NCBI GenBank assembly: GCA_016196925.1
Contig: JACPWS010000044.1
Coordinates: 1 to 49,292, forward strand
Source of the DNA: Burkholderiales bacterium
GTDB taxonomy: Bacteria; Pseudomonadota; Gammaproteobacteria; Burkholderiales; Burkholderiaceae_D
DNA length: 49,292 bases
Direction: 5' to 3'
Each line of letters opens with the position of its first letter. Within the stretch, counting starts at the first letter, position 1. A model generated the notes under the pieces. It was not told the origin of the DNA. It was given only the letters and a program-made list of their open reading frames with translations, and ran no database searches. The position numbers were made by a program, and so were the translations under genes. This document shows, one piece after another, positions 6,757-49,292 of this stretch.

Positions 6757-7065
6757 GGGGTTTCCTTGAGGCGGGTGCCGGCAACAAGCTGGCCGTCATT
6801 ACGCAATTAAAGCGCACAGTCTGCCGAATAATAATGGGTATTCGCGCAGGATGCGGCGCTTCCTCTGTCGGATACTTTGGCGGAATTGGCAGGACGGGTG
6901 AAACCCGCGCAGTTTTTCGTCGTATGGGCGACGCCGGCGGCAACATCGCTATACAGCCCGGGAGAAAGACAGCCGTCAGAATTGTCGGTTGAGGAAGCCG
7001 GGGAGGCTTACTGCGCTTCCGCAACAGATGCAGCGCCATAAAAATAGCGATTGCCGTAGAAATAA
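6757..7065. other. Gap upstream of dsdA, no gene supported
   Basis: GC-rich DNA between the dsdA start and the siderophore promoter. A plus-strand frame at 6835-7041 is open for about 69 codons but has no start codon or ribosome site, and I do not recognise its translation. It could be gene debris. The dsdA promoter should lie here but no confident -35/-10 pair was picked. Confidence 0.4.
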
Positions 7066-7095
7066 TTGACTCGCCAGCAAAAAAACACTTGTAAA
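7066..7095 (+). promoter_or_regulatory. Probable sigma-70 promoter of the siderophore operon
   Basis: TTGACT at 7066-7071 (one mismatch to TTGACA) is followed after 18 bases by TGTAAA at 7090-7095. The -10 overlaps the left arm of the Fur box, the classic arrangement for iron repression. The -10 is weak, so the call rests partly on the Fur site. Confidence 0.55.
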
Positions 7096-7116
7096 TGATA
7101 GCTATTCTCATTTACA
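7090..7116 (+). promoter_or_regulatory. Fur box upstream of siderophore operon
   Basis: TGTAAATGA at 7090-7098 and TCATTTACA at 7108-7116 are perfect inverted arms around nine bases. The inner 15-mer TGATAGCTATTCTCA (7096-7110) matches the 7-1-7 Fur consensus TGATAATnATTATCA at 11 of 14 defined positions. It overlaps the putative -10, so Fe-Fur binding should block transcription. This fits the siderophore genes downstream. Confidence 0.85.
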
Positions 7117-7232
7117 ATGATTTCACTTTATTAATTTCACATCCCATCAGCGCCAGCCCTCCCGCTTTACGCGTACGCCAGCATCCCTACATGGTCAAGT
7201 GAAACAACATGCGATACATCCTGGAGGGAACC

Positions 7233-7298
7233 ATGTCCATCGTCTTCTCGTATTCGGCCATCTTGATGCTCACTGCCGAACAGCAGCGCCGCTATTGA
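7233..7298 (+). CDS. Possible 21-residue leader ORF in the siderophore operon leader
   Basis: ATG at 7233 is preceded by a strong Shine-Dalgarno (GGAGGG, 7223-7228) and encodes MSIVFSYSAILMLTAEQQRR plus Tyr, then TGA. It lies 117 bases downstream of the Fur box and well ahead of the first synthetase gene. A ribosome site this good on a tiny ORF suggests real translation, either as a leader peptide or as the remnant of a longer gene. No homology recognised. Confidence 0.4.
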   Translation: MSIVFSYSAILMLTAEQQRRY

Positions 7299-7416
7299 TC
7301 TGGCGGACTATCGCAGTTGTATCGATAGCGCCAGCTAGCGCAGTGCATTGCACCTTGCTCTGCTCGCCGGGCGTGCACCCCTCGCTTCCGACGCAACAGT
7401 GACAGTCCGCTGACCG

Positions 7417-7435
7417 CCAGGCGCACCTGGTTTTT
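7417..7435 (+). terminator. Attenuator-like hairpin with T5 in the siderophore leader
   Basis: CCAGG (7417-7421), loop CGCA, CCTGG (7426-7430) then TTTTT: a small intrinsic-terminator shape inside the 400-base leader, 83 bases before the first synthetase start. A ccaggt at 7478-7483 could pair with acctgg and compete. The stem is only five pairs, so strength is uncertain. Confidence 0.4.
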
Positions 7436-7518
7436 ACCATATCGTTTTGCAGCAATGCTGCGATTGCTCAGGCAATGGCCAGGTACGCGCTCGCTCTGAA
7501 TATTTCACTGGAAGAAGC

Positions 7519-9321
7519 ATGACTATCTATAACATCGACCGACAGGCTGGCTATCTGTCGTTTTATCCGGCAGCAGCCGAGCGCACCCTGCGCCAGTTCA
7601 TTGCAGCCTTTTGGTTTGAAGGTGCCTTGCAAGGGCATCTGGAGCGCTATTCCGATGGCAGGGCCAGGTTGCATGTGTCGGGACAGGATGAGCAAGGCCT
7701 GCGCGTCGAATACTGGATAGCCGCAGGCCCTGTACGCAGTTTTGGACGCAGCCGTTTGCATGGGCCGGTGTTCGATACCGGCAGTGCTAAGGCCACGCAC
7801 GATATTGCTGCGGTGGCTGGCAATTTGCTCAGGCAGCAAGCCAGTCAAAACAGCACGCGCTTCATCGAGGAATTACTCCATACCGCAGCCAAGCAGGCTT
7901 GCTCGTTGCAGGCGCAAGCGCTAACGACAAAAAACAATGCCGTGCTGGATCTGCCGTATGCCTGGCAGGAGGCGCAACTGGGCGAGGGGCATTTATATCA
8001 CCCATGCTATCGATCCCGCATGGGTTTTAGCCTGACTGAGCACCAACGCTATGGACCGGAATTTGCCCAGGCTTTCGGCCTGGTGTGGCTGGCGCTGGAT
8101 CGCCAGCTTGGCGCTATCCATGCGAGGCCCGGCAGCGACTATGCGCGCTTTTTACAAGCGGAACTGGGGAATGAAGAGCTGGCTCGCCTGCAAGCGGCGA
8201 TCAAGGCGCTCGGCAAGGATAGCGATGGCTATTATCTCGTGCCGGCCCACCCCTGGCATTGGCAGCACAGCCTGCAAATCCGGTACGCCGACTGGCTGGC
8301 CGATGGCCGCCTGCTCTACCTCGGCGCCGGCGATTGCGCATGGCTGGCACAACAATCGATACGTTCGCTGACTTCGCTCGCCAGCCACGCCAGCCACAAC
8401 CTGAAGCTGCCGCTGGGCATCGCCAACAGCTCGGCCGACCGCATCCTGTCCGACCATCATGTCCACAATGCCCCGCTGATATCGGCATGGCTGGACAGGC
8501 TATGTACTGACGATGCCTTTTTACGGCAGCACTGCCGGCTGGCGATTCTGGCGGAACCCATGGGTATCACCCTGACACCTGCGGCGTCGCGCCAGGACAG
8601 ATACGGTTTGCTGGGGGCGATCTGGCGGCAGTCGCCGACATCGATACTCAGGCAAGGCGAACAGGTGTTTCCCTGCACTGCCTTGACTTCACTCGACGAC
8701 CGGCAGCAATTGAACATCTCGCCCTGGTTACAACAGCATGGTACGCAAGCCTGGGTCGACGCCTTGCTGCAAGCCATGCTGCCGCCGTTTATTCACCTGA
8801 TGCTGGCGCATGGCGTCTTGCTGGAAGCGCATGCGCAAAACACGCTGCTGATTTTAAAAGATGGTTTGCCCAGCGGCGTCGCCATCCGCGATTTGCCCGG
8901 TGGCCTGCACTATATCGCCGGGAAAACCACGCATGAAGCGCAACTGCAGCACTTGCGCCAGGCACCGGCCCACCGCAATGCGGCCAATGCCAGCAACGGT
9001 TTTGCCATGCAAACGACAAGCGAAGCCAGGGATTATCTGCTGGAAGTGCTGTTATTCATCCACCTTTCCGAACTGGCGCACAGGCTGGAGCGGCATCACG
9101 ATTTTGCCGAAAGCCGCTTCTGGCAACTGGCTGCACATGTCGTGCAGCGCTATCAGGCGCGGGTGCCGGAACTGGCAACGCGCCTGGCACAGTTCGATTT
9201 GTTTGCACCGCAAATACAAATGGAAAAGCTGGCCAGCAGGCGGCTGTCGGCCGCGCGGTCGCAAGAATTTCATGCAGTACCCAATCCCCTGCATGAATTT
9301 TTATCGCAACCGGGGGCATGA
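7519..9321 (+). CDS. IucA/IucC-type NRPS-independent siderophore (NIS) synthetase 1
   Basis: 600 aa. NIS synthetases adenylate a carboxylate (usually citrate) with ATP and condense it with an amine or alcohol to build a carboxylate siderophore in the cytoplasm. Family landmarks in order are HPCYRSRMGFSLTEH (nucleotide-binding HP..+.R.G loop), YYLVPAHPWHWQHSL, SIRSLTSLASHASHNLKL (the S-R-T loop and substrate pocket), then LEAHAQNTLL and IRDLPGG in the C-terminal fingers region. ATG 7519 was chosen because the upstream extension in this frame reads as leader DNA; the ribosome site (GGAAGAAG) is modest. First gene of a Fur-controlled operon with an exporter, a second synthetase and a receptor. 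Its stop abuts the MITE-like element. Confidence 0.92.
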   Translation: MTIYNIDRQAGYLSFYPAAAERTLRQFIAAFWFEGALQGHLERYSDGRARLHVSGQDEQGLRVEYWIAAGPVRSFGRSRLHGPVFDTGSAKATHDIAAVAGNLLRQQASQNSTRFIEELLHTAAKQACSLQAQALTTKNNAVLDLPYAWQEAQLGEGHLYHPCYRSRMGFSLTEHQRYGPEFAQAFGLVWLALDRQLGAIHARPGSDYARFLQAELGNEELARLQAAIKALGKDSDGYYLVPAHPWHWQHSLQIRYADWLADGRLLYLGAGDCAWLAQQSIRSLTSLASHASHNLKLPLGIANSSADRILSDHHVHNAPLISAWLDRLCTDDAFLRQHCRLAILAEPMGITLTPAASRQDRYGLLGAIWRQSPTSILRQGEQVFPCTALTSLDDRQQLNISPWLQQHGTQAWVDALLQAMLPPFIHLMLAHGVLLEAHAQNTLLILKDGLPSGVAIRDLPGGLHYIAGKTTHEAQLQHLRQAPAHRNAANASNGFAMQTTSEARDYLLEVLLFIHLSELAHRLERHHDFAESRFWQLAAHVVQRYQARVPELATRLAQFDLFAPQIQMEKLASRRLSAARSQEFHAVPNPLHEFLSQPGA

Positions 9322-9322
9322 T

Positions 9323-9556
9323 CCTAGATTCCTTAGTTGGACAGGTTCGAGTGTGCGCTTTTCCGGCTTTCTGGCAAGGCGCGACGACGACGCAACCTCG
9401 ATGTTGCTAGGAGGAGTAACGCAGGCAGGGAGCCGGAAAAGTGTGCAATCGAACCTGTAGCGCTCTCACCCAAATGGTGAACGACTTGAATGCCGTTATT
9501 TTGAAACATATCAATCACTTATCGAAGCTGAATAGCGGTCAACTGAGGAATCTAGG
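9323..9556. mobile_element. 234-bp MITE-like element with 17-bp terminal inverted repeats and 5-bp target duplication
   Basis: cctagattccttagttg (9323-9339) is repeated inverted at 9540-9556 with one mismatch. The element is flanked on both sides by ATGAT (9318-9322 and 9557-9561), a likely 5-bp target-site duplication. A second, 28-bp imperfect inverted pair lies inside (9341-9368 and 9431-9458: acaggttcga...cttttccggct). No transposase ORF is present. Removing the element plus one ATGAT would join the two genes as ...GCATGATGCG..., an ATGA stop/start overlap. The element therefore inserted exactly at a translationally coupled junction and the duplication regenerated both the stop and the start. 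Confidence 0.8.
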
Positions 9557-10705
9557 ATGATGCGACCAAGCATTTTTATCACGGTGCTGGGGCATTTTGG
9601 TGCGGCCTTTGCTGCGCTGTGCATGCCGCCTTTTTATGCGCACATCCTCAGCCAGAATTTTTCCAGCCAGACGCTGGTCATGGCCGGCTGGTACTTTACC
9701 CTGCCTACGCTGGCAGCCGCCATTGCCAACCCCTTGTGGGGCAAGCTGGCCGACCGCATAGGCATACGCGCTTCGCTGATACGCGCGCATTGGGGTTTGT
9801 GCTTTAGCTTCATTATCACCGGCCTGGCGCGCACCCCCTGGGAATTTGCCTTCGGTCTGACTTTGCAAGGTTTGCTGGGCGGCACCTTTGCGGCATCGAA
9901 TGCATTTCTGGCTTCATTCTTGCCGGGAAAACGTCTGGCGACTTTATTGAGCGTCATGCAAGGCTCGGCGCGCACCGCTCTGTTCGCCGGGCCAGCCGTC
10001 ATCGGTCTGTTCGGCGATGGGCGCAATTTGCTGCATGTCTTTTTTTACCTGGCTGTCTTACCTGGTCTGGCCGGGCTGGTTCTGTATCTGCTTCCGACAA
10101 GGCAAGGCGCGCCTGTTGCGGCCGGCGCCCTGTCCGGCAGCGCATCGCAAAGCATGCCGGCCGGCACGCTGGACCCCGCCAGCCTGTACCGTTTCCAGGC
10201 CTTGTTTACCGTAGGCACGGTATTGACCTACCCATATTTCGTCATAGACCTGGCGCAACGTCTGGCCATATCTGCGGCCTGGGCCGGTGCCTTGTTCGGG
10301 TTGCCGCATGCCCTGTTCTTGCTACTGGCCTGGCCGCTGGGGCGCCATGTGAACTTTTCCAATGCCCTGACTGCGCTGGCGCGTTTTTCTGCGCTGACTT
10401 GTGCCGGTTTGCTGCTGCAGGTGCTGGGTAGCAATTTGCCGGTGCTGATCGTGGGGCGCATTCTCATGGGGGGCGGTATGACCGGCGCCTATCTGGCCAT
10501 CAACACCCTGGCGGCGGCCACCACCCGGCAGGCCAGTGCGGGCCTGCATTTCGGCAAGCTGGAAGGCGCGAATAAATGGGGAGCCGTTCTGGCGGGAATT
10601 TTCGCAAGTGGTCTGGCTACTTCGCTGGGCTATACCGCTCCCATCTGGTTGGGCTGCGCCCTGTTGGCCAGCCTGTTTATTTTGATAGAAAGTAAACGCC
10701 TATGA
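9557..10705 (+). CDS. MFS transporter, probable siderophore exporter
   Basis: 382 aa, about 12 hydrophobic segments. It has the MFS loop 2-3 motif as NPLWGKLADRIGIRASL and a second-half counterpart GRHVNFSNALTA. Its place between two NIS synthetases is typical of exporters for citrate-based siderophores such as staphyloferrin A or rhizoferrin-type systems, so proton-driven export of the siderophore is inferred. The start (ATG ATG at 9557) directly follows the right end of the MITE-like element. That terminal repeat supplies the nearest ribosome-site-like GAGG (9545-9548), eight bases upstream. The stop overlaps the next start by ATGA. Confidence 0.88.
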   Translation: MMRPSIFITVLGHFGAAFAALCMPPFYAHILSQNFSSQTLVMAGWYFTLPTLAAAIANPLWGKLADRIGIRASLIRAHWGLCFSFIITGLARTPWEFAFGLTLQGLLGGTFAASNAFLASFLPGKRLATLLSVMQGSARTALFAGPAVIGLFGDGRNLLHVFFYLAVLPGLAGLVLYLLPTRQGAPVAAGALSGSASQSMPAGTLDPASLYRFQALFTVGTVLTYPYFVIDLAQRLAISAAWAGALFGLPHALFLLLAWPLGRHVNFSNALTALARFSALTCAGLLLQVLGSNLPVLIVGRILMGGGMTGAYLAINTLAAATTRQASAGLHFGKLEGANKWGAVLAGIFASGLATSLGYTAPIWLGCALLASLFILIESKRL

Positions 10706-12636
10706 ACGCTAGCTTACCCAAGTCCGCTTTGAGCCATCATCTGCACAAGGCTCTCCACCAGCTGCCGCTTCTGCATCGGCCACTCGTATCGAATGCATGG
10801 CGGGCCAGGAATGCCCCTGTCGCTGGCGAGATGGAAGACTACGCTCAACTGCAGCATGCACGCGTCCTGCTGAATTGCTATGCGCGTGAAGTCGCCATGC
10901 AGGAACACAGCCTGGCGGTGCGCGCCATCGCCCACATCAGACTGCCGCCTGCGGCCCTGCATCAGTATCGGGGGCAGGTGCTCGACATACAATTGCGACG
11001 CATGCAAAGCCGCTTGTGCGTGGGTGTCCGGCATGTGTCCGTCACCGGCAACTATGACTACACCACGGATATTTATCTGCAAGACCAGCAGCAAACCTGG
11101 TCGGTGGCGGGCTGGCGCGAAATTGCCGATCTCATCATCGCCGACCTGTCGCTGCGGGAAGGCACGCCCTTTAATGCCGACCTGCTACAACAGATAGAGG
11201 CAAGCATTGCCACCATGCAGCATCTGCTCGATGTGCAGAAGGAAAAAGCGGGCGCACACCAGACAGGCACGGCTTTACAGCAATACATACGCAGCGAACA
11301 GCATCTGCTGACGGGCCACCCTTTCCATCCCACGCCCAAAAGCCGTTCGGGTTGGTCGACCGCAGAAGAAAAAAGCTATTCGCCGGAACATGGCGCACAA
11401 CTGCAATTGCGTTATTTCCAACTGCCGCGCAGCTGGATCGTCAGCGACAGCCTGGATGGCGCAGACCTGAGCACACGCTTGCAGCAACTGACGGCGCATG
11501 GCCTGCAGGCGGACGCGGGTCACGTCATCCTGCCTCTGCATCCCTGGCAGGCTGACTGGCTCATGCAGCAAGCGCGCATCAGGGCGGCCGTGGCGGCGGG
11601 CGAGGTGCGCGATCTGGGTTTGAGCGGCAAGCAGTTTTATCCGACCGCGTCGATACGCACTATGCTGGCGGAAGAGGGCAGTGCTTTCTTAAAACTGTCG
11701 CTGAATCTGCGCATCACCAATTGCATACGCAATAATGCGCGACATGAACTGGCCGCAGCACTCGCTGCCAGCCGCTTATACCGGCCCATGAAAGCCGAGA
11801 TGCAAGCGCTGTTCCCGCATTTTCATGTACTCGAAGAGCAGGCGTATCTGAGCGTCAGTTTCCCGGAAGATCGGCAGCACGGTCAGCGACAACACAAGGA
11901 AATCGAAGACGGCTTTGGCCTGGTCTTGCGTGAAGGCCTGGCGCTGCATGTTGCACAAGGCGTCACGCCCTTGATATGCGCATCGCTGTTTGGCAACGGC
12001 CAGACTGGCCGCCTGCAAGCGGCAGCGCTGATAGAACGCTATGCCCACAGGCATGGCCTGCCGCTGAGCCTGGGCATGCGCCTGTGGTTCAGCAGCTATG
12101 CCGAGCTGGCGATTTTTCCGGTGTTTTATCTGCTGTTTGAAAAAGGCATCGCCTTCGAGCCGCACATGCAAAACAGCATCGTCGGCCTGGCGGAAGACGG
12201 CGCACCGGCGCGCTTCATCGTCCGGGATCTGGAACTGACCAGGCTGACACCCAAGGCCCACGAACTGATCGCCACGCTGCAACTGGGTACCCCTACGCGC
12301 CAGGAAATCTGCTGCAGCGATGAAGCCGGCTGGACACGCATAGCATACTGCCTGCTGGTCAACAACATCTGCGAAGTCATCGCCACACTGGCGAATGGCA
12401 ACCATGAACTCTACCTGGACTTATGGGCTTGCCTGCGCCATACCCTGCAAACTTATCTCGCCAGCTTCCCCAACCCCGAGGCGGCGCGCCGCATACAAGG
12501 CCTGCTGTCGGGAGAACCCTTGCCTGTCAAGGGCAATTTATTGGTCCGCTTTTTAAAGCAGGCCGACCGCAAGGCAGCCTACCTGCCGCTGTATCACCCG
12601 CTGGGGGTGGTGAATGCCGCCCGTCCTTTGCTGTAA
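10702..12636 (+). CDS. IucA/IucC-type NIS siderophore synthetase 2
   Basis: 644 aa. It shows the same fold markers as the first synthetase: HPFHPTPKSRSGW (nucleotide loop), VILPLHPWQADWL, FYPTASIRTMLAEEG, KLSLNLRITNCIRNNARHE, then FEPHMQNSIV and VRDLELTRL. The two synthetases are clearly diverged, which fits two successive condensations on one backbone rather than a recent duplication. The ATGA overlap with the exporter at 10702 shows the coupling style the first junction probably also had. No decarboxylase, racemase or ATP-grasp gene accompanies the pair, so the amine backbone (for example putrescine) would have to come from primary metabolism; that is inference. Confidence 0.92.
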   Translation: MNASLPKSALSHHLHKALHQLPLLHRPLVSNAWRARNAPVAGEMEDYAQLQHARVLLNCYAREVAMQEHSLAVRAIAHIRLPPAALHQYRGQVLDIQLRRMQSRLCVGVRHVSVTGNYDYTTDIYLQDQQQTWSVAGWREIADLIIADLSLREGTPFNADLLQQIEASIATMQHLLDVQKEKAGAHQTGTALQQYIRSEQHLLTGHPFHPTPKSRSGWSTAEEKSYSPEHGAQLQLRYFQLPRSWIVSDSLDGADLSTRLQQLTAHGLQADAGHVILPLHPWQADWLMQQARIRAAVAAGEVRDLGLSGKQFYPTASIRTMLAEEGSAFLKLSLNLRITNCIRNNARHELAAALAASRLYRPMKAEMQALFPHFHVLEEQAYLSVSFPEDRQHGQRQHKEIEDGFGLVLREGLALHVAQGVTPLICASLFGNGQTGRLQAAALIERYAHRHGLPLSLGMRLWFSSYAELAIFPVFYLLFEKGIAFEPHMQNSIVGLAEDGAPARFIVRDLELTRLTPKAHELIATLQLGTPTRQEICCSDEAGWTRIAYCLLVNNICEVIATLANGNHELYLDLWACLRHTLQTYLASFPNPEAARRIQGLLSGEPLPVKGNLLVRFLKQADRKAAYLPLYHPLGVVNAARPLL

Positions 12637-12656
12637 TCCGTTTTATAACCACTGAA

Positions 12657-14741
12657 ATGAAGTCACTCTCTATGCAAGCGAAACCTCTGTCACTCATCAT
12701 TGCCGCCCTGTTCTGCCACACCTGCAGCAGCCAGGCAATAGCACAAACGCAAACGCAATCGCCGAACGAGCTGCCGGCCATCGAAGTCAAGGCGCAAGCG
12801 CAAGGTGGCGACACCCTGGTCAGCGGCGCCAGCAAAACCCGCAGCACCTTGCTGGAAATACCGCAATCCATCTCTGTCGTCAACAATGAAGACTTGCGCG
12901 CGCGCGCCGTCAACAGCAGCAAGGATGCGCTGGCTTATACGCCCGGCATCATCGCCGGGCAAGGCGAAGGCCGGCGCGACGAATTTTATATACGCGGCTT
13001 TTACTCCCCTCGCGAAACCCTGCTCGACGGCATGCGCGACGACAGTCTGTATTACCGCGATATCGCCACCACCGACAAGCTCGAAGTCATCAAGGGCGCA
13101 ACGGCTGCCTTGTATGGCCGGGGCGCAGCCGGTGGCCTGATCAACCGCATCACCAAAAAACCGCAGGCCAAACAGGAGAATGAAATCTCGCTGGCGCTGG
13201 GTTCCAACCGCCAGCGCAGGCTCAGCGTCGATGCCGGCGGCGCACTCGGTGCCGATGTGAATGCCCGCCTGATCGCCGCTTATGACGCGGGCGACAGTTA
13301 TCGCGACGTCGTTAATCATAAACGCGAGCTGTTGGCGCCTGCGCTGTCATGGACTATCAGTCCGCAAACCAGTCTGCTGTTGCAGGCGGAAATGCAGCGC
13401 GAAGATCATACGCCGGACCGCGGCATTCCCTCTTTGAACGGTCGCGCCGTGGCCGTCGATGCCGGCACTTTTTACGGCGAAAAATTTGACTACACCAAAA
13501 CCGACAGCGACTTGATCAAAGCCAGGCTGGAACACAAATTTAATCGTCAGCTCAGTCTCGTCAACAATCTGCAATACAGCCAGACCGATCTGGATGGGGT
13601 GAATACGCGTAACCGGCGCGTGAATGCGAACGGAACCGTGTCGCGCCAGATTACCTACTTCCCCATCCAGCAAAAAAATCTGCTGAACCAGACCGAGCTG
13701 ACTTATGCCGTGGGCGATCACCTGTTGCTGACAGGCCTGGAACTATCGCAACAAAAGCGCGATTCTCTGATCCGGCAAACCGGCACGGCTTACCCTGTGG
13801 ATTTATACCATCCCCAGCAATTGCTGACGGCGCCCGACTTTAAGTCCCTGCCGGTGGCCATCAACAGCCATTTCAATGCCGATACCGTGGCACTGTACCT
13901 GCAAGACCAGATCGCCCTGACAGCGAACTGGGACATGCTGCTCGGCGGCCGCTTCGACCAGTTCAAGCAAAAGCAGACCAATCGCCAGAACAACAACGCG
14001 GTCAGCGAACGCACCGATAATCTGTTTTCTCCGCGCATGGGCCTGGTATATAAAATAACGCCGCAGCAGTCGGTATATGTCGCCGTCAGCCGTTCGCATC
14101 AGCCGGCGGGCGGCGACTTGCTCTACACCGGCAGCAAGCCGCTGAGCGAGGTAAAACCATTGAAGACAGACTTGCAGGAAATCGGCCTGAAACAAGACTG
14201 GCTGGATAAGCGCCTGTACACCAGCATCGCCCTGTTCAGGGTAGAACAAAGCAATCAGCTGACCGCCGACCCGAGCGACCCGACAGGTTTGCGCCAGTTG
14301 CAAATCGGCCGCCAGCGCAATCAAGGCCTGGAAGCGGAATTGCAAGGCCAGCTCGCCGGCGGCACGCAAGTTCATGCCAGCTACACCTATAACGATGCCA
14401 AAATCCTTGCCTCCAACGACATACGCATAGGCAACCGCGCAGAAATGACTCCGGCCCACAATGCCAGCTTGTGGTTAAAACAAAGCTTCACCCGCAACTG
14501 GAGCGTCGGTGCCGGCATCATCGCCCACAGCGAGCAATACGCCCTGACCGACAATACGGTACGCCTGCCCGGCTATGCCCGCATCGACCTGTCGGTAGCC
14601 TATCTGCAAGCACGTTATGACATCACGCTGAAACTGAATAATGCCGGCAACACCCGCTATATGGAGTCAGCCAATAACAATGTGCAGATACAGCCGGGCG
14701 CGCCTCTGAACGTCAGCATGGTGCTGAATTCGCGGTTTTGA
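12657..14741 (+). CDS. TonB-dependent siderophore receptor, outer membrane
   Basis: 694 aa. It has a signal peptide (MKSLSMQAKPLSLIIAALFC... to AIAQ) and an N-terminal TonB-box-like ELPAIEVKA. The plug domain contains STLLEIPQSISVVNNEDL, FYIRGFYSPRETLLDGMRDD and VIKGATAALYGRGAAGGLIN (typical of the siderophore-receptor subfamily). A long beta-barrel ends in the C-terminal aromatic residue (VLNSRF) needed for BAM assembly. ATG 12657 lies 20 bases after the second synthetase stop and gives the signal peptide; the longer upstream frame overlaps that gene. Likely imports the ferric form of the siderophore made by this operon. No periplasmic binding protein or ABC importer is nearby. Confidence 0.95.
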   Translation: MKSLSMQAKPLSLIIAALFCHTCSSQAIAQTQTQSPNELPAIEVKAQAQGGDTLVSGASKTRSTLLEIPQSISVVNNEDLRARAVNSSKDALAYTPGIIAGQGEGRRDEFYIRGFYSPRETLLDGMRDDSLYYRDIATTDKLEVIKGATAALYGRGAAGGLINRITKKPQAKQENEISLALGSNRQRRLSVDAGGALGADVNARLIAAYDAGDSYRDVVNHKRELLAPALSWTISPQTSLLLQAEMQREDHTPDRGIPSLNGRAVAVDAGTFYGEKFDYTKTDSDLIKARLEHKFNRQLSLVNNLQYSQTDLDGVNTRNRRVNANGTVSRQITYFPIQQKNLLNQTELTYAVGDHLLLTGLELSQQKRDSLIRQTGTAYPVDLYHPQQLLTAPDFKSLPVAINSHFNADTVALYLQDQIALTANWDMLLGGRFDQFKQKQTNRQNNNAVSERTDNLFSPRMGLVYKITPQQSVYVAVSRSHQPAGGDLLYTGSKPLSEVKPLKTDLQEIGLKQDWLDKRLYTSIALFRVEQSNQLTADPSDPTGLRQLQIGRQRNQGLEAELQGQLAGGTQVHASYTYNDAKILASNDIRIGNRAEMTPAHNASLWLKQSFTRNWSVGAGIIAHSEQYALTDNTVRLPGYARIDLSVAYLQARYDITLKLNNAGNTRYMESANNNVQIQPGAPLNVSMVLNSRF

Positions 14742-44115: not shown

Positions 44116-46335
44116 TCAGGCCTGCTTCTTCAGTTCCTGCTGCTGCAACACATCCTGAGCTATCGCCCCCTGCTGCAATACCACCACCCGCTGCGCCATC
44201 GCTATCGTTTCCGGCCGGTGCGCCACGATGATACGGGTCAGCGGAATTTGCTGAATCGCACGATTCACCGCCTGCTCATTCCACACGTCGAGGTGGCTGG
44301 TGGCCTCATCCAATACCAGCAATTTCGGGTTCTTGTACAAGGCGCGCGCCAGCAAGATGCGCTGCTTCTGTCCGCCCGAGAGGCCGGTGCCGATATCGCC
44401 GACCAGGGTGTGATACGCCATCGGCATGGCGGCGATTTCCTGATGGATAGACGCCAGCTGCGCGCAAGCCATGATCTGCTGCTGATCCGGGGCCGGGTCG
44501 AAGAAGGCGATGTTGTCGGCGATCGAGCCGGCGAACAGGCTATCGTCCTGCATGACCGTGCCCAGCAGTTGCCGATAATTCGCCATGCCCAATTGCTGCA
44601 GCGGTATCGCGGTTTGAGCTCGTAGGGTGGGCACAGATTCACCGTGCCCACGCGTGACCGTCGAATCACCAGCGATCCCAGTCTCCCCGCCAATCAAAAT
44701 CTCGCCCTCGGTCGGCTCCAGCAGACCGAGCAAGAGTTTCATCAAGGTAGTCTTGCCGCAACCGGAAGGCCCGGTCACCGCGATGCATTGCCCGGCCGGT
44801 ATCGTCAGGTTCAAATCTTGCAAGACATACGGCTCGCTATCGGCGTAACGGAACGACAGATTGCGGATTTCTATGGCAGGGTTGATCTCGTCGGCGGCGA
44901 TCTCGACCTCTTGCGCTTCTGGCTCAGCCTCGGCCAACACGATGTCGGCCACCCGCTCGCCGTGCAGGCGCAACATGCGCAGCTCGAACAGCTTATCGAC
45001 CAGACTCGCCATGCGCTGGCTGAACTGATCCTTGTAACTGATGAAGGCAAACAGCATCCCGACCGAGAAACGGTTATCCAGCACGGCCAGCGCCGCCAGC
45101 CAGATCACGATCACACGCTCGGCGCCGAACAGCAAGGCATTCGCGGTCTGATACGACACCGCCAATTTGGCGATGCGCAGCTCCGCATTGAATTGATCGG
45201 CCAGCGCATTCATCCAGCCGGCGCGCCGCTCTTCGTTGCGGCCGAACAGGCGCACGCTCTGCGCCCCGCGCACCGATTCCATGAAATGCGTCTGCTGCTT
45301 AGCCGCATGGATAATCTGCTCGGCCGTCGCTTCGCGCAAAGCCTTGAAAATGGTCCAGCGCAAGACCACATACAAGGCCACCGCCACACAGGCCAGCGCC
45401 GCCAGTTGCACGCTGTACAGCAACATCATGATCAGTGTGCCGATGACCAGCACACCGTCGATTACGCCTTCCACAAACTGGGTAGTCAGGCTGCGCTGCA
45501 TGGTCTGGATAGAACCGAAACGCGAGACGATATCGCCGGTATGGCGTTTCTCGAAGTAAGGCAAGGGCAGTTTCAGCAAATGCGCAAAGGCATTTCCCAG
45601 CCACTGGAAATTCAGCTTGGTCGCCAGCACCGTAGTAACCCAGGAACGCAGCGCGCCTATGCTGGTTTGCAACACCACCAATAACAGGAAACCACAACCG
45701 AGCACCGTGATCAAGTCGCGGTCGGCCGCCAGCAAGGCTTCGTCCACCACCCATTGCATGTAAAACGGCGCCACCAGCGCGCAGGCTTGCAAGGCCAGGC
45801 CCAGCAGCAACAATTGCACCAGATTGCGTTTGAGACCGACCACCCGTCCCATCAGCGACAGCAGAGAGAATTGCCGGACTTCCTGCTTGCGCTCGAATTG
45901 CGCGGTCGGCGTGAGTTCCAGCGCCACCCCACTGAAATGCCTGGCGATTTCGGACAGCGCCAAACGCCGTTCGCCCACTGCCGGATCGTGGATCACCGCA
46001 TGGCTGGTGCTTACCGCTTTCAGCACCACAAAGTGATTCATATCCCAATGCAAGACACACGGCAGTTTCAGCTCGGGCAGATGCTGCATGTCGAGCTTCA
46101 GCGGCCGGGTTTGCAAGTGCAGCCCCTGCGCCATCGCCATCAGGCTCTTCAGGGTAGAGCCTTTCAGCGACACCGAGTAACGCCGCCGCATGCTGGCGAT
46201 GTCGATACGATGACCCCAGTAGCTGGCGATCATGCACAAGGACGCCAGCCCGCATTCGGCGGCTTCGGTTTGCAACAGCACCGGCAAGTGTTTGCTGCGC
46301 CAGAAAGACAGGTGGGGGAGGGTGAGTAAGTTCAT
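44116..46335 (-). CDS. Peptidase-containing ABC transporter (C39 leader peptidase, PCAT/CvaB-RaxB type)
   Basis: 739 aa. An N-terminal C39 peptidase has Gln22, Cys28 (LLQTEAAECGLASLCMIASY), His101 (HWDMNHFVVLK) and Asp117 (HDPAVGERRL). It removes double-glycine leaders during export. Six TMs occupy about 165-450. The ATPase has Walker A GPSGCGKTTLMKLLLGLLEP, signature GLSGGQKQRILLARAL, Walker B LLVLDEATSHLD and switch His in IIVAHRPETI. Residues 551-576 are an in-frame insertion of repeat DNA after GEILIGG and before IPLQQLGMANYRQ, where relatives have no extra loop. ATG 46335 lacks a clear ribosome site, and an upstream extension would be repeat DNA. It follows the HlyD-type gene; the likely cargo is the double-glycine peptide at 47928. 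Confidence 0.93.
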   Translation of the reverse strand: MNLLTLPHLSFWRSKHLPVLLQTEAAECGLASLCMIASYWGHRIDIASMRRRYSVSLKGSTLKSLMAMAQGLHLQTRPLKLDMQHLPELKLPCVLHWDMNHFVVLKAVSTSHAVIHDPAVGERRLALSEIARHFSGVALELTPTAQFERKQEVRQFSLLSLMGRVVGLKRNLVQLLLLGLALQACALVAPFYMQWVVDEALLAADRDLITVLGCGFLLLVVLQTSIGALRSWVTTVLATKLNFQWLGNAFAHLLKLPLPYFEKRHTGDIVSRFGSIQTMQRSLTTQFVEGVIDGVLVIGTLIMMLLYSVQLAALACVAVALYVVLRWTIFKALREATAEQIIHAAKQQTHFMESVRGAQSVRLFGRNEERRAGWMNALADQFNAELRIAKLAVSYQTANALLFGAERVIVIWLAALAVLDNRFSVGMLFAFISYKDQFSQRMASLVDKLFELRMLRLHGERVADIVLAEAEPEAQEVEIAADEINPAIEIRNLSFRYADSEPYVLQDLNLTIPAGQCIAVTGPSGCGKTTLMKLLLGLLEPTEGEILIGGETGIAGDSTVTRGHGESVPTLRAQTAIPLQQLGMANYRQLLGTVMQDDSLFAGSIADNIAFFDPAPDQQQIMACAQLASIHQEIAAMPMAYHTLVGDIGTGLSGGQKQRILLARALYKNPKLLVLDEATSHLDVWNEQAVNRAIQQIPLTRIIVAHRPETIAMAQRVVVLQQGAIAQDVLQQQELKKQA
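44608..44685. repeat. In-frame 78-nt palindromic repeat inside the transporter ATPase domain
   Basis: The core cgtagggtgggcac...gtgcccacgcgtgac has eight-base arms (44627-44634 and 44644-44651). Its 'gtaggg' head resembles the intergenic units at 14835-14922. It encodes 26 residues (ETGIAGDSTV...LRAQTA) that interrupt an otherwise normal ATPase without shifting the frame. No clear target duplication seen. Confidence 0.75.
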
Positions 46336-46381
46336 GGAAAAAGCTGAGATGATCTTGAAAAAAACCGAAAACTTAAATACC

Positions 46382-46472
46382 GTCGTTCCGGCATGCTTTA
46401 AGCCGGAACCCAGCGTCTTTGCTCGCTCAACGAAAGCCGCTGGATTCCGGCTAAAGGCACGCCGGAATGACG
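46382..46472. repeat. REP-like inverted pair between the transporter and adaptor genes
   Basis: gtcgttccggcatgctttaa... ending cccagcg at 46382-46415 faces cgctggattccggctaaagg... ending ggaatgacg at 46438-46472. The same unit occurs in the element at 5212-5245, and a related one at 18627-18692. It may act as a stem-loop between the two co-directional genes. Confidence 0.85.
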
Positions 46473-46498
46473 TCGCTATGAATGGTCGTACGCAGCTA

Positions 46499-47809
46499 TT
46501 AGCCCCGCCCCGCAATGCTATACAAAGGCTCCAGCACCCATTCGATCAGCTTGCGCTGTTCCAGCACGATGCTGGCGTCGACCAGCATGCCCGATTTCAA
46601 AGGCAGGGCCTGACCATAGGCAAGCACGGTTTGCTGCCCCAGTTTCAGGCGGATACGGTACAGCGGTTCGGAGCCGGCCCCGGCCGGCAGCGCCGCCCCC
46701 GGCAAGGCCAGCTCTTCCGGCCGCAGCGAGGTGTGCGCCACTTCGGTCACGGTTGCACTGTATTGGCCGAATTTCTGATACGGATAAGCCTGGTAACGCA
46801 GCCAGACCGTCATGCCCGGTTGCACGAAGCCGGCCGAACGCGAAGGCGCATAGATTTCCGCCGCCAGCTCGGCCCCGGCCGGCAAGATTGCGGCCAGCGC
46901 CTGATTGGCCGCCACGCTTTGCCCGACTTCGGCTGTGAGCGCCGTGACCACCCCCGCTTGCGGCGCGCGCACCACGATCTCGCGCCTGGCCTCGCTCTCG
47001 GTCAGGTCTTGCTCCAGCGCCGCCACGTTGCGCTGCAAGGCCGCCGTATCGCGTTGCGCCTGCAAGGCCAGCTCGCGTACATCGGCTTGCGTCGCCGCCA
47101 GTTCGCGCCGGTTGGACGATTGCAGGCGCTGCAAATCCGCCAGCCGCCCGCGCTGATCGAGCAGTTCGGCTTGCTTGTCTTGCAACTGGGCCGCCGACAA
47201 ATAATTGGTGGCTTGCAAGTCGCTATAACGCTTATAGGCTTGTTCGGCGATGCTCACGCGCTGCTGTTGCAAACTAATCTGGTCGTCCAGCTTGTGCAGC
47301 CCGCCCTCCATCTCGCCGGCCTTTTGCTGCAACGCTGACAGGCGCAGGCGCGCCTGTGCGCTGGATTGTTGCAGCTCACCGCGGTAACTATCGCGCCGGC
47401 TTTGCACCAGATCGGAAATGGTCCGGTTCGCTTCGCCGCCGCCACTGTTGCGCTCGCTGGCCAGCACAAACAAGACTTGCCCCGCCTTAACCGCTGCGCC
47501 TTCCCGCACCCGCTTCTCGGCTATCACCCCGGCTTGCATCGGCAGCACGCGGATCACCCCGGAAGTCGGTAACAGCACGCCCTGGCATTGCGCCTTGCGC
47601 GTGGTCGAGAACAGGAAGAAGAAGGCGACGATGGCGGCCACCAAGCCAACAAACAAAGCGGTCAGCCAGCGCTGGCTGGCGGCCGTGGTCAGCAGCACGG
47701 TGCCGTATTGGCGCGTGCTCAAGTGTTCGATTGCTTGGCGGCGGAACAGCGGGCGAACCGTCGCCGGAGGTGCGACTGTGGTCGATTGAGGGGAATCAGG
47801 AGCTTGCAA
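46499..47809 (-). CDS. HlyD-family periplasmic adaptor of a peptide exporter (CvaA-like)
   Basis: 436 aa with a TTG start at 47809; no ATG is available, an upstream TTG at 47887 is the alternative, and ribosome sites are weak. A cytoplasmic N-terminus of about 50 residues leads to one TM (WLTALFVGLVAAIVAFFFLF). Then come a lipoyl half-motif (GVIRVLPMQAGVIAEKRVRE), a long coiled-coil hairpin (about 140-290) and the second half (IVVRAPQAGVVTALTAEVGQ). This is the membrane-fusion partner of a C39 ABC transporter, bridging to an outer-membrane TolC-like channel, which is not in the window. Order adaptor then transporter, divergent from the peptide gene. Confidence 0.9.
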   Translation of the reverse strand: MQAPDSPQSTTVAPPATVRPLFRRQAIEHLSTRQYGTVLLTTAASQRWLTALFVGLVAAIVAFFFLFSTTRKAQCQGVLLPTSGVIRVLPMQAGVIAEKRVREGAAVKAGQVLFVLASERNSGGGEANRTISDLVQSRRDSYRGELQQSSAQARLRLSALQQKAGEMEGGLHKLDDQISLQQQRVSIAEQAYKRYSDLQATNYLSAAQLQDKQAELLDQRGRLADLQRLQSSNRRELAATQADVRELALQAQRDTAALQRNVAALEQDLTESEARREIVVRAPQAGVVTALTAEVGQSVAANQALAAILPAGAELAAEIYAPSRSAGFVQPGMTVWLRYQAYPYQKFGQYSATVTEVAHTSLRPEELALPGAALPAGAGSEPLYRIRLKLGQQTVLAYGQALPLKSGMLVDASIVLEQRKLIEWVLEPLYSIAGRG

Positions 47810-47837
47810 GATAATCTTTTCTTTTAAAAAATATATC

Positions 47838-47868
47838 TTGACATCAACCGTTTTTTTTTTGCAATACT
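47838..47868 (+). promoter_or_regulatory. Probable promoter of the double-glycine peptide gene
   Basis: TTGACA (47838-47843) is followed after 19 bases, including a run of ten T, by AATACT (47863-47868). The -35 is perfect; the spacing is long. It lies in the AT-rich divergent region between the adaptor and the peptide genes. Confidence 0.45.
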
Positions 47869-47927
47869 TTTGTTGTCGCAGCGCCAATGTTGCGGCGAAT
47901 TTTTTACTTTTCTTTTATGGAGTTGTT

Positions 47928-48053
47928 ATGCAAGAATTGAATATGATGGAAGTTGAGCAAGTTGGTGGCGGTATCGCTGATTTAGCTGCTTTTGCACTCT
48001 TTTGGATCGTTGCTTATGCTGGTCAAGAAATGGGTTGGTGGGAAATAGGTTAA
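47928..48053 (+). CDS. Double-glycine leader peptide, candidate microcin or signal peptide
   Basis: 41 aa from ATG 47928, with GGAG at 47919-47922. The leader MQELNMMEVEQVGG fits the C39-cleaved class (acidic, Leu/Met/Val at the -12/-7/-4/-3 positions, ending Gly-Gly). The predicted core of 27 residues begins GIADLAAFALFWIVAYAG and ends with a Trp-Trp pair. It is hydrophobic with three acidic and no basic residues, so it is not a typical cationic bacteriocin. An upstream in-frame extension to 47838 would overlap the promoter and is rejected. Divergent from the C39 transporter/adaptor pair, which is its likely exporter. No modification enzyme is nearby, so the core is probably unmodified. Confidence 0.85.
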   Translation: MQELNMMEVEQVGGGIADLAAFALFWIVAYAGQEMGWWEIG

Positions 48054-48059
48054 TATAAA

Positions 48060-48087
48060 AGTTGCTCTGGTTGTGACTAGAGCAACT
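48060..48087. terminator. Hairpin just after the peptide gene
   Basis: agttgctct (48060-48068) pairs perfectly with agagcaact (48079-48087) around a ten-base loop, 7 bases after the stop. The rightward flank is A-rich rather than T-rich, so it is a weak terminator or an mRNA-end stabiliser that could favour peptide over downstream expression. Confidence 0.5.
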
Positions 48088-48159
48088 ATAAAATACAGTG
48101 ACAAAATTATAAATTTAATGCCGCCTAATAGCGGTAATCTACAAAAAATGAATGCTTAA

Positions 48160-48921
48160 ATGCAAGTTAAAAGCCTAATAGTAATAAAGATTTGTTCGAT
48201 TTTTCTCACATCTTCGCTAACTTCGTTTGTATTTGCCCAGAACATCGATAACTTGCAACATTTAGATGCACAAGACTCCACGGTTATCGTTACAGCTACA
48301 CGAGATCCTCAATGGATATCTTATCGTGATGCGTATAAAGCGATGGAAATATTCAATGATTATCAGAAGCCTAAAAATTATCTAAAACCGCGTTTTGTTT
48401 TATGGCCCAAAAATACCAATGAGTCGAATGAAGAATTGCGATTACAAATAATTGGTAAAACAACAAATCAAGAGGTCAGGCTGGAAAATTTGTGGGGAAC
48501 TATTCCTATGAATAAATCAGCATATGATGAGGGTGCTGATTTCAGATTAAATCGTAGGGCAGGGAGCTATCGTTTCGCTAGAGTAATGACAATCGCGGAT
48601 AACCCGGAGGGCGTTTACGCCGAGGCAGAATTAAGAGTAGCTTGCAATCAAGTACTTGATTTTTTCAGAGACAAATTATTTGAAAGAATTCGGTTCATAG
48701 GAAAGAAATGTTCTGGTATTAAATTTTTGTATTCACAAAAAATTGATGAGCCGGTCTTGAATTTGAGAGAGAAAAATCAAAACTTGAGTCGTATAAAAGA
48801 ACAAGAAATTGACTCTGAAAAGGGAAGAAAAATCATCATCTACCGATTTTCAGACTCACATAAGGGAGCTGACATTATTACGACTACATTACCAGTTGCC
48901 ATAGCTGCTTTAATTGAATGA
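48160..48921 (+). CDS. Secreted protein of unknown function next to the double-glycine peptide
   Basis: 253 aa. A clear Sec signal peptide (MQVKSLIVIKICSIFLTSSL, then TSFVFA|QN) precedes a mature protein of about 225 residues rich in Lys/Glu/Arg, with no TM. The start of the mature part reads DSTVIVTATRDPQWISYRDA, and two Cys (near residues 161 and 183) could form a disulfide. I do not recognise a family. Base composition is much richer in AT than the rest of the window, like the peptide gene beside it, so the two may have arrived together. It could be an immunity or accessory factor for the peptide, or unrelated. No good ribosome site precedes ATG 48160; possibly read through from the peptide promoter. 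Confidence 0.7.
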   Translation: MQVKSLIVIKICSIFLTSSLTSFVFAQNIDNLQHLDAQDSTVIVTATRDPQWISYRDAYKAMEIFNDYQKPKNYLKPRFVLWPKNTNESNEELRLQIIGKTTNQEVRLENLWGTIPMNKSAYDEGADFRLNRRAGSYRFARVMTIADNPEGVYAEAELRVACNQVLDFFRDKLFERIRFIGKKCSGIKFLYSQKIDEPVLNLREKNQNLSRIKEQEIDSEKGRKIIIYRFSDSHKGADIITTTLPVAIAALIE

Positions 48922-48924
48922 AAT

Positions 48925-48996
48925 TGGTATTGCCATGCCTATTGCCTGATGGATAATCACTATCATCTCTTGATGAAGCATGGGGTCAGGCCTTGA
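48925..48996 (+). pseudogene. Fragment of a REP-associated Y1 transposase (HUH motif)
   Basis: The translation WYCHAYCLMDNHYHLLM matches the catalytic core of RAYT/IS200-like Y1 transposases, where H-x-H (here HYH) binds the metal. It then breaks off into repeat DNA and a stop (TGA 48994-48996). No start or N-terminus precedes it. This core normally lies about 60 residues after the MARPLRIEF-type start, which here is found downstream at 49078, so the pieces are out of order. Confidence 0.8.
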
Positions 48997-49014
48997 AGCA
49001 TGGGGTCAGGCCTT
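48975..49014 (+). repeat. Tandem 20-bp repeat, two copies
   Basis: gaagcatggggtcaggcctt is repeated back to back (48975-48994 and 48995-49014), then followed by acatttgacatt. The 'tggggtcaggcctt' core is related to the 'atggggtc' units at 49230-49288 and flanks RAYT debris on both sides. Confidence 0.9.
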
Positions 49015-49077
49015 ACATTTGACATTATCCGATAACCATCCTACACGCAGCTTTACCTGAATAGGTGGGGGATAGTA

Positions 49078-49292
49078 ATGGCAAGGCCTTTACGCATTGA
49101 ATTTGCCGGTGCGCTGTACCATGTCACTGCTCGCGGCAACGCGCAAGCCAATATTTATGATGATGACGATGATCGCCAGCCCGTAGAGCGCAATGAGCTT
49201 CATCTATTGCGCCGCATGGAATGCATCACGCAAATGGGGTCCGCAAATGGGGTCAGTTCTAATCCGCAAATGGGGTCCAAATGGGGTCGGTC
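49078..49292 (+). pseudogene. N-terminus of a RAYT (Y1) transposase degenerating into repeats, runs off the window
   Basis: MARPLRIEFAGALYHVTARG is the classic RAYT start, with the first conserved His/Thr-Arg-Gly segment. It continues NAQANIYDDDDDRQ, then leaves the family pattern (PVERNELHLLRRMECITQMG) and reads into 'aaatggggtc' repeats. The expected WxCHAYCLMxNHYHLL core is missing here and lies upstream at 48925. The frame is still open at the window end, so what follows is unknown. Most likely a truncated, non-functional copy. Confidence 0.75.
49230..49288 (+). repeat. Four copies of a 12-bp 'gcaaatggggtc' unit
   Basis: Copies at 49230-49241, 49243-49254, 49266-49277 and a variant (ccaaatggggtc) at about 49277-49288. 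They are typical of degenerate DNA around REP-associated transposases. Confidence 0.85.

Follow-up and report, generated by a model that had tools for sequence, protein, structure and literature searches.

The locus studied here combines an ABC transporter carrying a C39 peptidase domain, an HlyD-type adaptor, a divergently encoded 41-aa peptide with a double-glycine leader, and a secreted protein of 253 aa (P253). On balance, we consider it probable that this locus specifies a small unmodified bacteriocin-like peptide exported by a C39/HlyD/TolC route, P253 being a candidate for its immunity protein in the periplasm. The window, that is, the whole stretch of 49,292 nucleotides analyzed, is one entire contig of an Undibacterium-like genome that is 94% complete; the contig ends at position 49292, so that 3' of P253 only one cut-off ORF can be read. 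The earlier observation of an exporter accompanied by a double-glycine peptide and a secreted neighbor was upheld, including several of its particulars: (i) the catalytic residues of the C39 transporter (Cys28, His101, and Asp117) are intact, (ii) the adaptor is of the HlyD family, with Pfam HlyD_3 scoring over its cut-off, and (iii) the divergent ORF at 47928-48053 on the plus strand has a double-glycine leader and a ribosome site, GGAG preceding the ATG.

The transporter (PCAT, 739 aa, 44116..46335, minus strand) matches Pfam Peptidase_C39, ABC_membrane, and ABC_tran, all far over the cut-offs, and is homologous to ComA, to which it was aligned, and to PCAT1. The three catalytic residues are identical in an alignment with six orthologs, and the Walker A, LSGGQ, Walker B, and H-loop motifs are present. 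The nucleotide-binding domain carries an in-frame insertion of about 26 aa (44608..44685, minus strand), which makes the protein 26 residues longer than four orthologs and 22 residues longer than two others at this place. This insertion is made of a REP-like palindrome (core 44625-44653) with 7 copies in the genome, compared with 0 for the reversed-pattern control. The insertion could impair transport; since it is in frame and stems from a genome-repeated palindrome, function of the transporter is likely, not assured. The adaptor (about 436 aa, 46499..~47809, minus strand) has an uncertain TTG start in an ORF open to 47887, and its match to NCBIfam type_I_hlyD falls below the cut-off; its orthologs adjoin C39 genes in seven same-genus loci (55.5-63.1% identity). 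Elsewhere in the genome, 14 stretches belong to the OEP (TolC-type) family, any one of which is a putative partner channel.

The peptide precursor (MQELNMMEVEQVGGG followed by IADLAAFALFWIVAYAGQEMGWWEIG; 47928..48053, plus strand) is documented by family alignments, a profile match, and pattern simulation. Its leader is of the type MQELN..EV..V.GG. The core had been described as 27 residues long, a value corrected here to 26: in the family alignment V-S-G-G is aligned to V12-G13-G14-G15, and thus the leader comprises 15 aa with the double glycine at residues 14-15 (47928..47972, plus strand) and the core comprises 26 aa (47973..48050, plus strand). The acidic hydrophobic core has a mass of 2.93 kDa and a calculated pI of 4.05, and lies within one predicted helix, long enough to cross a membrane, that spans precursor residues 15 to 35. 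A single-sequence search identified a peptide of U. jejuense as the closest relative; 12 of the 15 leader codons are identical between the two and 2 are synonymous. The VGGG leader end is also seen in the peptides of L169 and L170. The strict leader pattern matched once in the window and never in 60 same-size first-order Markov windows, whereas a looser pattern gave two matches against a simulated mean of 0.82. We conclude that the 41-aa peptide gene is genuine. Comparison with Pfam, NCBIfam, and PADLOC yielded only two NCBIfam matches, TIGR03949 and NF011343, both under their cut-offs. A second leader-type cargo in this 94% complete genome was rejected, the next profile match having an E-value of 0.128.

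Upstream of the peptide gene, a promoter-like element shared with relatives (TTGACA, a T-rich 19-nt spacer, and AATACT in TTTGCAATACT; 47838..47868, plus strand) precedes a hairpin (47873..47898, plus strand) with a T-rich stretch behind it, located at the putative 5' end of the peptide transcript or close to it. A consensus promoter scan allowing spacers of 16-18 nt did not pick this element with its 19-nt spacer. Both parts are common to five leader-type loci. A search with the model of this region (R1), which recovers its five training loci by construction, did not find the element before the peptides of G003, G005, G012, and G037, and among the candidates scored in 98 genomes (at most 49 per genome, strict filters) gave no further convincing copy. 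Pairing in the hairpin is retained with altered bases in relatives; 83.6% of cells pair when the misregistered row G026_L036 is included, and 18, 37, 7, 33, and 8 of 500 shuffles reach the five measures. A slide of -3 columns, the register of G026_L036, gives equally many both-side changes (4 pairs, 5 cells) with fewer paired cells (67.3%). Given these shuffle counts and the equal number of changes in the shifted register, covariation in the hairpin is suggestive, not decisive. Despite its terminator-like form (2 such matches in the stretch scanned vs 1.2 in shuffles), we rejected the view that the hairpin is a proven attenuator; provided that the promoter-like element has been read correctly, the transcript would begin with this hairpin, and thus a stabilizing role is equally likely. 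Folding of the intergenic stretch predicted another hairpin, of 12 bp, right after the peptide stop codon (48060..48087, plus strand). The Rfam search of 47780-48180 gave two matches, both far under the gathering score.

The proposal that the peptide is the cargo of the C39/HlyD pair, for which co-occurrence in relatives had been named as a check, gained support and is now considered likely. A leader-type peptide was found at E <= 1e-3 in 9 of 43 same-genus genomes, by a profile built from peptides of eight of these nine; the eight had been detected by single-sequence search (best E-values of 2.4e-4 to 0.06 outside the window), and since the profile was trained on its own finds, the count represents leader likeness judged twice, not independent data. 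The peptide occurs in 7 of 8 genomes with a close C39 ortholog and in 2 of 35 without one (Fisher p 8.5e-6; 3.6e-5 without the window genome; 1.2e-4 with the borderline G012 peptide uncounted), p values that are a guide only, given the kinship of the genomes and the choice of both cut-offs with the lists already in view. Four genomes (the window genome, G002, G009, and G037) have the peptide gene on the side of hlyD that is divergent, at a distance of 1.46-1.69 kb (1.6 kb in the window) from where the close C39 gene was matched; the other five of the nine genomes with a peptide have no close C39 gene beside it. One genome, G028, has a close C39 gene with no leader-type peptide found. Among the leader-type peptides the leader is conserved and the cores are hypervariable. 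G037 carries several such peptides, neighbored by a CPBP (Rce1-like) protein and a DUF3267 protein; an S9-type membrane-anchored protein is encoded downstream of the peptide in three or four other loci. The suggestion of a new microcin-like or signaling family has to be modified in that the peptide does not stand alone, its leader being common to a set with different cores, and in that it lacks microcin size. A literature search by title and abstract start, in which few subscription journals were covered, gave no such peptide in Undibacterium or Oxalobacteraceae among the matches listed.

P253 (48160..48921, plus strand) has a Sec-type signal peptide recognizable by eye, matches nothing in Pfam or NCBIfam at E <= 10, and gave no PADLOC result. 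Its structural model is beta-rich (pLDDT 81.8) and has no match in PDB or BFVD at E <= 0.001 by Foldseek; a search of P253 in plasmids gave no match. Homologs were nevertheless detected in 53 of 196 genomes at E <= 0.01, and W52, S54, Y55, R56, C162, and C184 are invariant in 25 aligned rows, window included. Of 30 loci of the P253 family, 25 show a MipA-type motif beside the gene and 13 a response-regulator motif; the MipA-type motif is absent from the stretches of the window, U. jejuense, L047, L050, and L074. Judged by its sequence, P253 is a diverged offshoot of a presumably periplasmic family that mostly adjoins MipA; its clade is split from 22 other tree rows with support of 100/100 and a long-branch warning. 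Thus, the description of P253 as an unknown secreted protein holds for the signal peptide and the missing domain matches, but has to be amended by its homology to a largely MipA-associated family. Likewise, the statement that no recognized immunity gene is present stands as far as names go, there being no database match, while P253 itself is now a candidate, a gene of its clade following the closest peptide relative in U. jejuense.

By its leader and by the nearby C39 transporter with Cys, His, and Asp, the locus represents a variant of an established type, in which a double-glycine peptide is paired with a C39 transporter, and cleavage and export are predicted. With the class II microcins (microcin V with CvaB/CvaA/TolC) it shares the leader, the C39 residues, an HlyD-type fusion protein, TolC-type channels in the genome, an adjoining candidate immunity gene, and an anionic hydrophobic core. 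According to the available sections of PMC9746304 and PMC10233263, however, class II microcins have mature masses of about 5-10 kDa, precursors of 75-120 aa, and inner-membrane immunity proteins of 51-216 aa. The class II microcin label was therefore rejected on size, the 41-aa precursor having a core below the published range (26 aa, 2.9 kDa). Nor is a canonical membrane immunity protein apparent, the adjoining P253 having 253 aa, a signal peptide, and a beta-rich model. The host is Undibacterium, not an enteric, and any activity of the window peptide is a prediction. The McbABCI locus of Moraxella catarrhalis, another non-enteric Gram-negative, similarly unites a fusion protein, a C39-type ABC transporter, a short double-glycine peptide, and an immunity factor; as described in the available part of PMC2761928, it differs in its 101-aa precursor, 74-aa immunity factor, and overlapping genes of one operon, whereas the window peptide is divergent from the exporter and has its own 5' element. 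The Nap peptides of Neisseria gonorrhoeae are also short double-glycine peptides with a C39 peptidase (16-36 aa predicted mature), but are cationic, paired with a FapF-like channel, and assigned a role in autolysis in the accessible text of PMC11798529. The window leader and core start align weakly with the class IIb family TIGR03949 (lactobin A/cerein 7B; 14.6 bits, not reaching the curated cut-off of 21.5). The same leader type occurs beside C39/HlyD in the clusters of G037 (Undibacterium group) and Chitinimonas sp. BJB300, which differ from the window in having several peptides per locus; the G037 cluster has the CPBP and DUF3267 genes where the window has P253.

The favored reading can be put as a pathway. 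The precursor would be transcribed from its own promoter-like element, and the neighboring transporter would cleave it after Gly15 with its C39 domain; the ABC domain, together with the HlyD adaptor and a TolC-type channel from another place in the genome, would then move the 26-aa helix outside the cell, where it may insert into or bind an envelope target of close relatives and act as a toxin, presumably killing them. P253, read downstream past the RNA hairpin, would go to the periplasm and guard the producer, either by capturing the peptide or by keeping its target out of reach. By analogy, a conserved leader with a changing core and a changing downstream gene would be the pattern expected of a bacteriocin and its antidote. 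Counted against this reading, P253 is larger than and differently placed from class II microcin immunity proteins as given in the available parts of PMC9746304 and PMC10233263. Further points against it are the insertion in the nucleotide-binding domain, the missing fold match of P253, the pairing of P253 and peptide in a single species besides the window, the five peptides that have no close C39 gene beside them, the C39 gene of G028 with no peptide found, and the four peptides before which the 5' element was not found. A quite unlikely alternative retains the peptide as exported cargo and takes P253 for a bystander kept by chance: the P253 family is common without the peptide, 28 of 30 loci having no convincing leader-type peptide within flanks of up to 1.5 kb (a loose pattern picked short ORFs in nine other loci, none by eye with a convincing double-glycine leader), and the third gene of the P253 clade, in G026, has no leader-type ORF within the 16 kb read. 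However, the peptides of the window and U. jejuense each precede a gene of this separate clade in different genomic surroundings, a pairing seen beyond the window in that one species, where no C39 match was found within the 20 kb read.

The regulatory flavor of the P253 neighborhoods, with their MipA-type and response-regulator motifs, together with the short acidic core and the absence of a canonical immunity gene, would suit a quorum-type signal, the exported 26-mer reporting cell density or kin and P253 serving as a periplasmic binding protein that feeds an envelope regulatory pathway. We regard this as unlikely: no regulator or kinase was found in the stretches read beside the peptides, the neighbors alternate among unrelated proteins, peptidase-type included, and antagonism fits better with cores that are hypervariable within one genus and present in several versions in G037. 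Action on the producer itself by envelope stress, autolysis, or membrane insertion, with P253 moderating, appears very unlikely; the transmembrane length of the helix agrees with it, as does the account in the accessible text of PMC11798529 that Nap peptides promote autolysis and did not kill competitors, but the Nap peptides differ in charge and channel, and here a C39/HlyD export pair adjoins and co-occurs with leader-type peptides.

Beyond the bacteriocin reading of this locus, a wider and doubtful extension is that Undibacterium and its kin possess movable toxin-antidote cassettes, in which the leader and, in several loci, the promoter and 5' hairpin stay constant while cores and antidotes are swapped, the antidotes acting outside the cytoplasm by new routes (P253 recruited from a MipA neighborhood; membrane-anchored S9 serine peptidases destroying the peptide). 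Short double-glycine peptides of non-enteric Gram-negatives are little explored; a published microcin pipeline retains immunity candidates of up to 250 aa, as stated in the available part of PMC9746304, a limit by which P253 with its 253 aa is narrowly missed. The leader and the 5' element are usable as a search key for more cassettes. If the proposed reading is true, very small peptides can be grouped by one leader type, which in five loci is joined by one 5' element, and their P253-type, S9-type, CPBP, and DUF3267 neighbors are candidates for extracytoplasmic self-protection.

The window corresponds to the entire 49,292-base contig C95 of a 3.54-Mb genome (94% complete, 107 contigs), and the positions assigned in the preliminary description to the C39 transporter (44116-46335, minus strand), the HlyD adaptor (46499 to about 47809, minus strand), the divergent 41-aa peptide ORF (47928-48053, plus strand), and the secreted 253-aa protein P253 (48160-48921, plus strand) were borne out. 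A strict leader pattern matched the window once and none of 60 simulated windows, and a loose pattern matched it twice, compared to 0.82 matches expected from simulated windows. The double glycine occupies residues 14-15 of the precursor in an alignment of 16 peptides; thus, the leader is 15 aa long and the core, IADLAAFALFWIVAYAGQEMGWWEIG (computed 2.93 kDa, pI 4.05), is 26 aa long, instead of the 27 residues proposed previously. The AlphaFold2 model of the precursor (16-row alignment; pTM 0.43, mean pLDDT 77.7) contains a helix at residues 6-13, a glycine break, and a helix at residues 15-35. Compared with Undibacterium jejuense KACC 12607 (G022), the window has two synonymous substitutions and one amino-acid substitution in codons 1-15, and every one of codons 16-20 is different.

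The C39 domain of the transporter is alignable to ComA and matches entries of the PCAT1 type. Cys28, His101, and Asp117 are conserved without exception across the window and six aligned orthologues, in agreement with the earlier claim that these residues are intact. The NBD is 22-26 residues longer than in the orthologues, and the in-frame insertion (44608-44685) is a REP-like palindrome, GGGTGGGCAC...GTGCCCACGC, present in seven copies genome-wide; since the reading frame is intact, the gene is probably still in use. A long imperfect palindrome of the REP type, TTCCGGCATGC...GCCGGAATGACG, was seen by eye between the C39 and hlyD genes (46370-46490). The contig terminates within an ORF (48960-49292) that has no Pfam match and that we take to resemble a REP-associated tyrosine transposase; this stretch contains AAATGGGGTC four times versus 0.06 expected. 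A second C39 transporter of the same genome (locus L124, G000:C17, 1099-3277) is encoded by two overlapping frames, with no HlyD match within the 12 kb read. Elsewhere in the window (5401-14741), Pfam matches identify a PLP-dependent enzyme, two IucA/IucC proteins, an MFS transporter, and a TonB-dependent receptor, presumably of the siderophore-synthesis type.

The leader profile built from the 16 peptides was searched against 196 related genomes (G000 is the window's genome; G000-G042 belong to the same genus). At E <= 0.5, 42 of the 196 genomes were matched; many weak matches are sited within long frames and thus are probably due to chance. At E <= 1e-3, the matches listed include 9 of the 43 same-genus genomes (G000, G002, G003, G005, G009, G012, G022, G026, and G037); eight of the nine had themselves contributed rows to the profile, after their peptides were first detected by single-sequence search. 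Close C39 orthologues (76-85% over the first 308 aa, next best 59%; 72.8-82.6% in another comparison) were found in eight same-genus genomes: G000, G002, G003, G005, G009, G012, G028, and G037. The preliminary description had proposed looking in relatives for co-occurrence of the small ORF with C39, and such co-occurrence was found: seven of the eight close-C39 genomes hold a leader-type peptide. The Fisher p value of 8.5e-6 (3.6e-5 without the window genome; 1.2e-4 when the G012 peptide, match E 4.9e-4, is left out) serves only as a guide, because related genomes were compared, under cut-offs fixed after the lists had been seen.

In four of these seven, G000, G002, G009, and G037, the peptide and the matched C39 stretch are 1.46-1.69 kb apart, with hlyD between them. 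The distance is 46.9 kb in Undibacterium squillarum KCTC 23917 (G003) and 58.5 kb in G005, where the C39 frame is split, and the two genes are on separate contigs in G012. The peptide-containing genomes G022 and G026 have C39 genes only 47-59% identical to that of the window. In G028 (70% complete), no leader-type ORF was present in the 13 kb read; next to its C39/HlyD pair, a divergent TonB-dependent receptor gene (L105:1345-3549) stands where other loci have the peptide. When a genome-contig collection was scanned with a strict pattern, using five of the peptides as queries, 24 matches and four confirmed loci were obtained, the latter in two Undibacterium records, an Oxalobacteraceae MAG, and Chitinimonas sp. 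BJB300. Three further loci (L110, L111, and L112 of G004, G026, and G034; about 6200-7900 and 11700-12100) contain arrays of ORFs 24-35 aa long, whose leaders resemble MR.L...E.L.VAGG and whose tiny cores, PEVDVESGGG, are closely similar. The arrays surround a C39/HlyD pair in which the C39 protein shares about 58% identity with that of the window; most array ORFs failed a simple ribosome-site test.

In the window, G022, G026, G009, and G002, the region ahead of the peptide carries the motif TTTT(T/A)GCAATACT and then, in order, a hairpin, a run rich in T, a ribosome site, and the ATG codon. The motif has TTGACA upstream of it in three of these loci (the window, G009, and G002); in the window the spacer after TTGACA is 19 nt long, more than the promoter scan allows. 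Exact TTTTTGCAATACTNTGNNTG occurred three times in 60 genomes, each time immediately upstream of a leader-type peptide, and the reversed-pattern control gave no occurrences; among nine further places with one mismatch, a leader-type peptide follows only that of the window. In the 11-pair hairpin helix, 83.6% of 55 cells are paired, with both-side changes at four pairs; the observed pairing measures were reached by 7 to 37 of 500 shuffles, and one of the five rows, G026, has a different pairing register. A covariance model (98 genomes, strict filters, at most 49 candidates scored per genome) recovered the five training loci at E <= 5e-8, by construction; the best E beyond them was 0.19, and the two best extras inspected lacked a GG peptide. 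The model found no element upstream of the G003, G005, G012, and G037 peptides, so the constant 5' module of predicted promoter, hairpin, and leader is a feature of five loci and is not shared by every one.

Downstream of the peptide, the window encodes P253 and U. jejuense a 38%-identical protein. P253 relatives were found in 53 of 196 genomes (E <= 0.01); a MipA-type motif is present in 25 of the 30 family loci read, and Pfam MipA was confirmed in all four proteins tested. The P253-type proteins of the window, U. jejuense, and G026 group in one clade, apart from 22 others, with 100/100 support, although the placement of the window protein is less sure than this support suggests, since the tree program flags long branches. 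In two of the 30 loci, those of the window and U. jejuense, a convincing leader-type peptide adjoins the gene; none was found in the 16 kb read around the G026 gene. The P253 model is beta-rich with several helices (mean pLDDT 81.8, low at residues 18-50), and Foldseek returned no match at E <= 0.001 in PDB and BFVD.

Other peptides have other partners. In G009, G026, and G003, the downstream gene encodes a protein of 675-698 aa that, as judged by eye, carries a hydrophobic anchor at its N terminus; the G009 protein has a Pfam S9 peptidase domain and is matched by the other two, that of G003 across the S9 part only. Three of the best five S9-type matches (query included, E <= 2.6e-33) stand behind an intact leader-type peptide; in G051 the preceding peptide is interrupted by a stop, and in G034 no preceding leader-type peptide was seen. 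All five retain the serine, aspartate, and histidine of the triad (alignment, by eye). Weaker S9-domain matches are common (64 of 118 genomes at E <= 0.001). Three leader-type peptides (L036:9673-9837, L037:3422-3616, and L038:9936-10106), each followed by an S9-type gene, have GG, about 12-16 hydrophobic residues up to [LI][ST]GC, which we take to be lipobox-like, and a hydrophilic tail; this fusion of a GG leader to a lipoprotein-like motif is odd, and a single literature search returned no paper on it. In G037, CPBP/Rce1-like and DUF3267 proteins neighbour several leader-type peptides; CPBP (Abi) proteins can serve as bacteriocin immunity proteins. The G002 peptide is followed by a hydrophobic protein assigned to no family.

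Beyond the genes and their conservation, we infer the following as the most likely pathway. The precursor would be expressed from its own 5' module, its leader helix would dock on the C39 domain, and cleavage would follow Gly15. The peptide would then leave the cell through a channel of the ABC-HlyD-TolC type; 14 stretches with an OEP domain are encoded elsewhere in the genome. The acidic hydrophobic helix would act on the envelope of kin, and P253 would protect the producer from within the periplasm. A constant leader with a variable core and neighbour is the expected look of an arms-race peptide with cognate immunity.

Of the five components that the consulted part of PMC9746304 lists for a microcin locus, the precursor, C39 transporter, and fusion protein are present here and TolC-type channels are in the genome, whereas the fifth, an immunity gene, is represented by a candidate alone. 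The 2.93-kDa core fails the size of about 5-10 kDa that the consulted part of PMC10233263 gives for class II microcins, and therefore the locus is not filed under that class. It belongs to the broader kind of double-glycine peptides with a C39 exporter, for which the nearest non-enteric cases found in the consulted portions of the literature are McbC of Moraxella and the Nap peptides of Neisseria. Within this known kind the locus is a real and new variant, and its main worth lies in the shared 5' module and the unusual neighbours.
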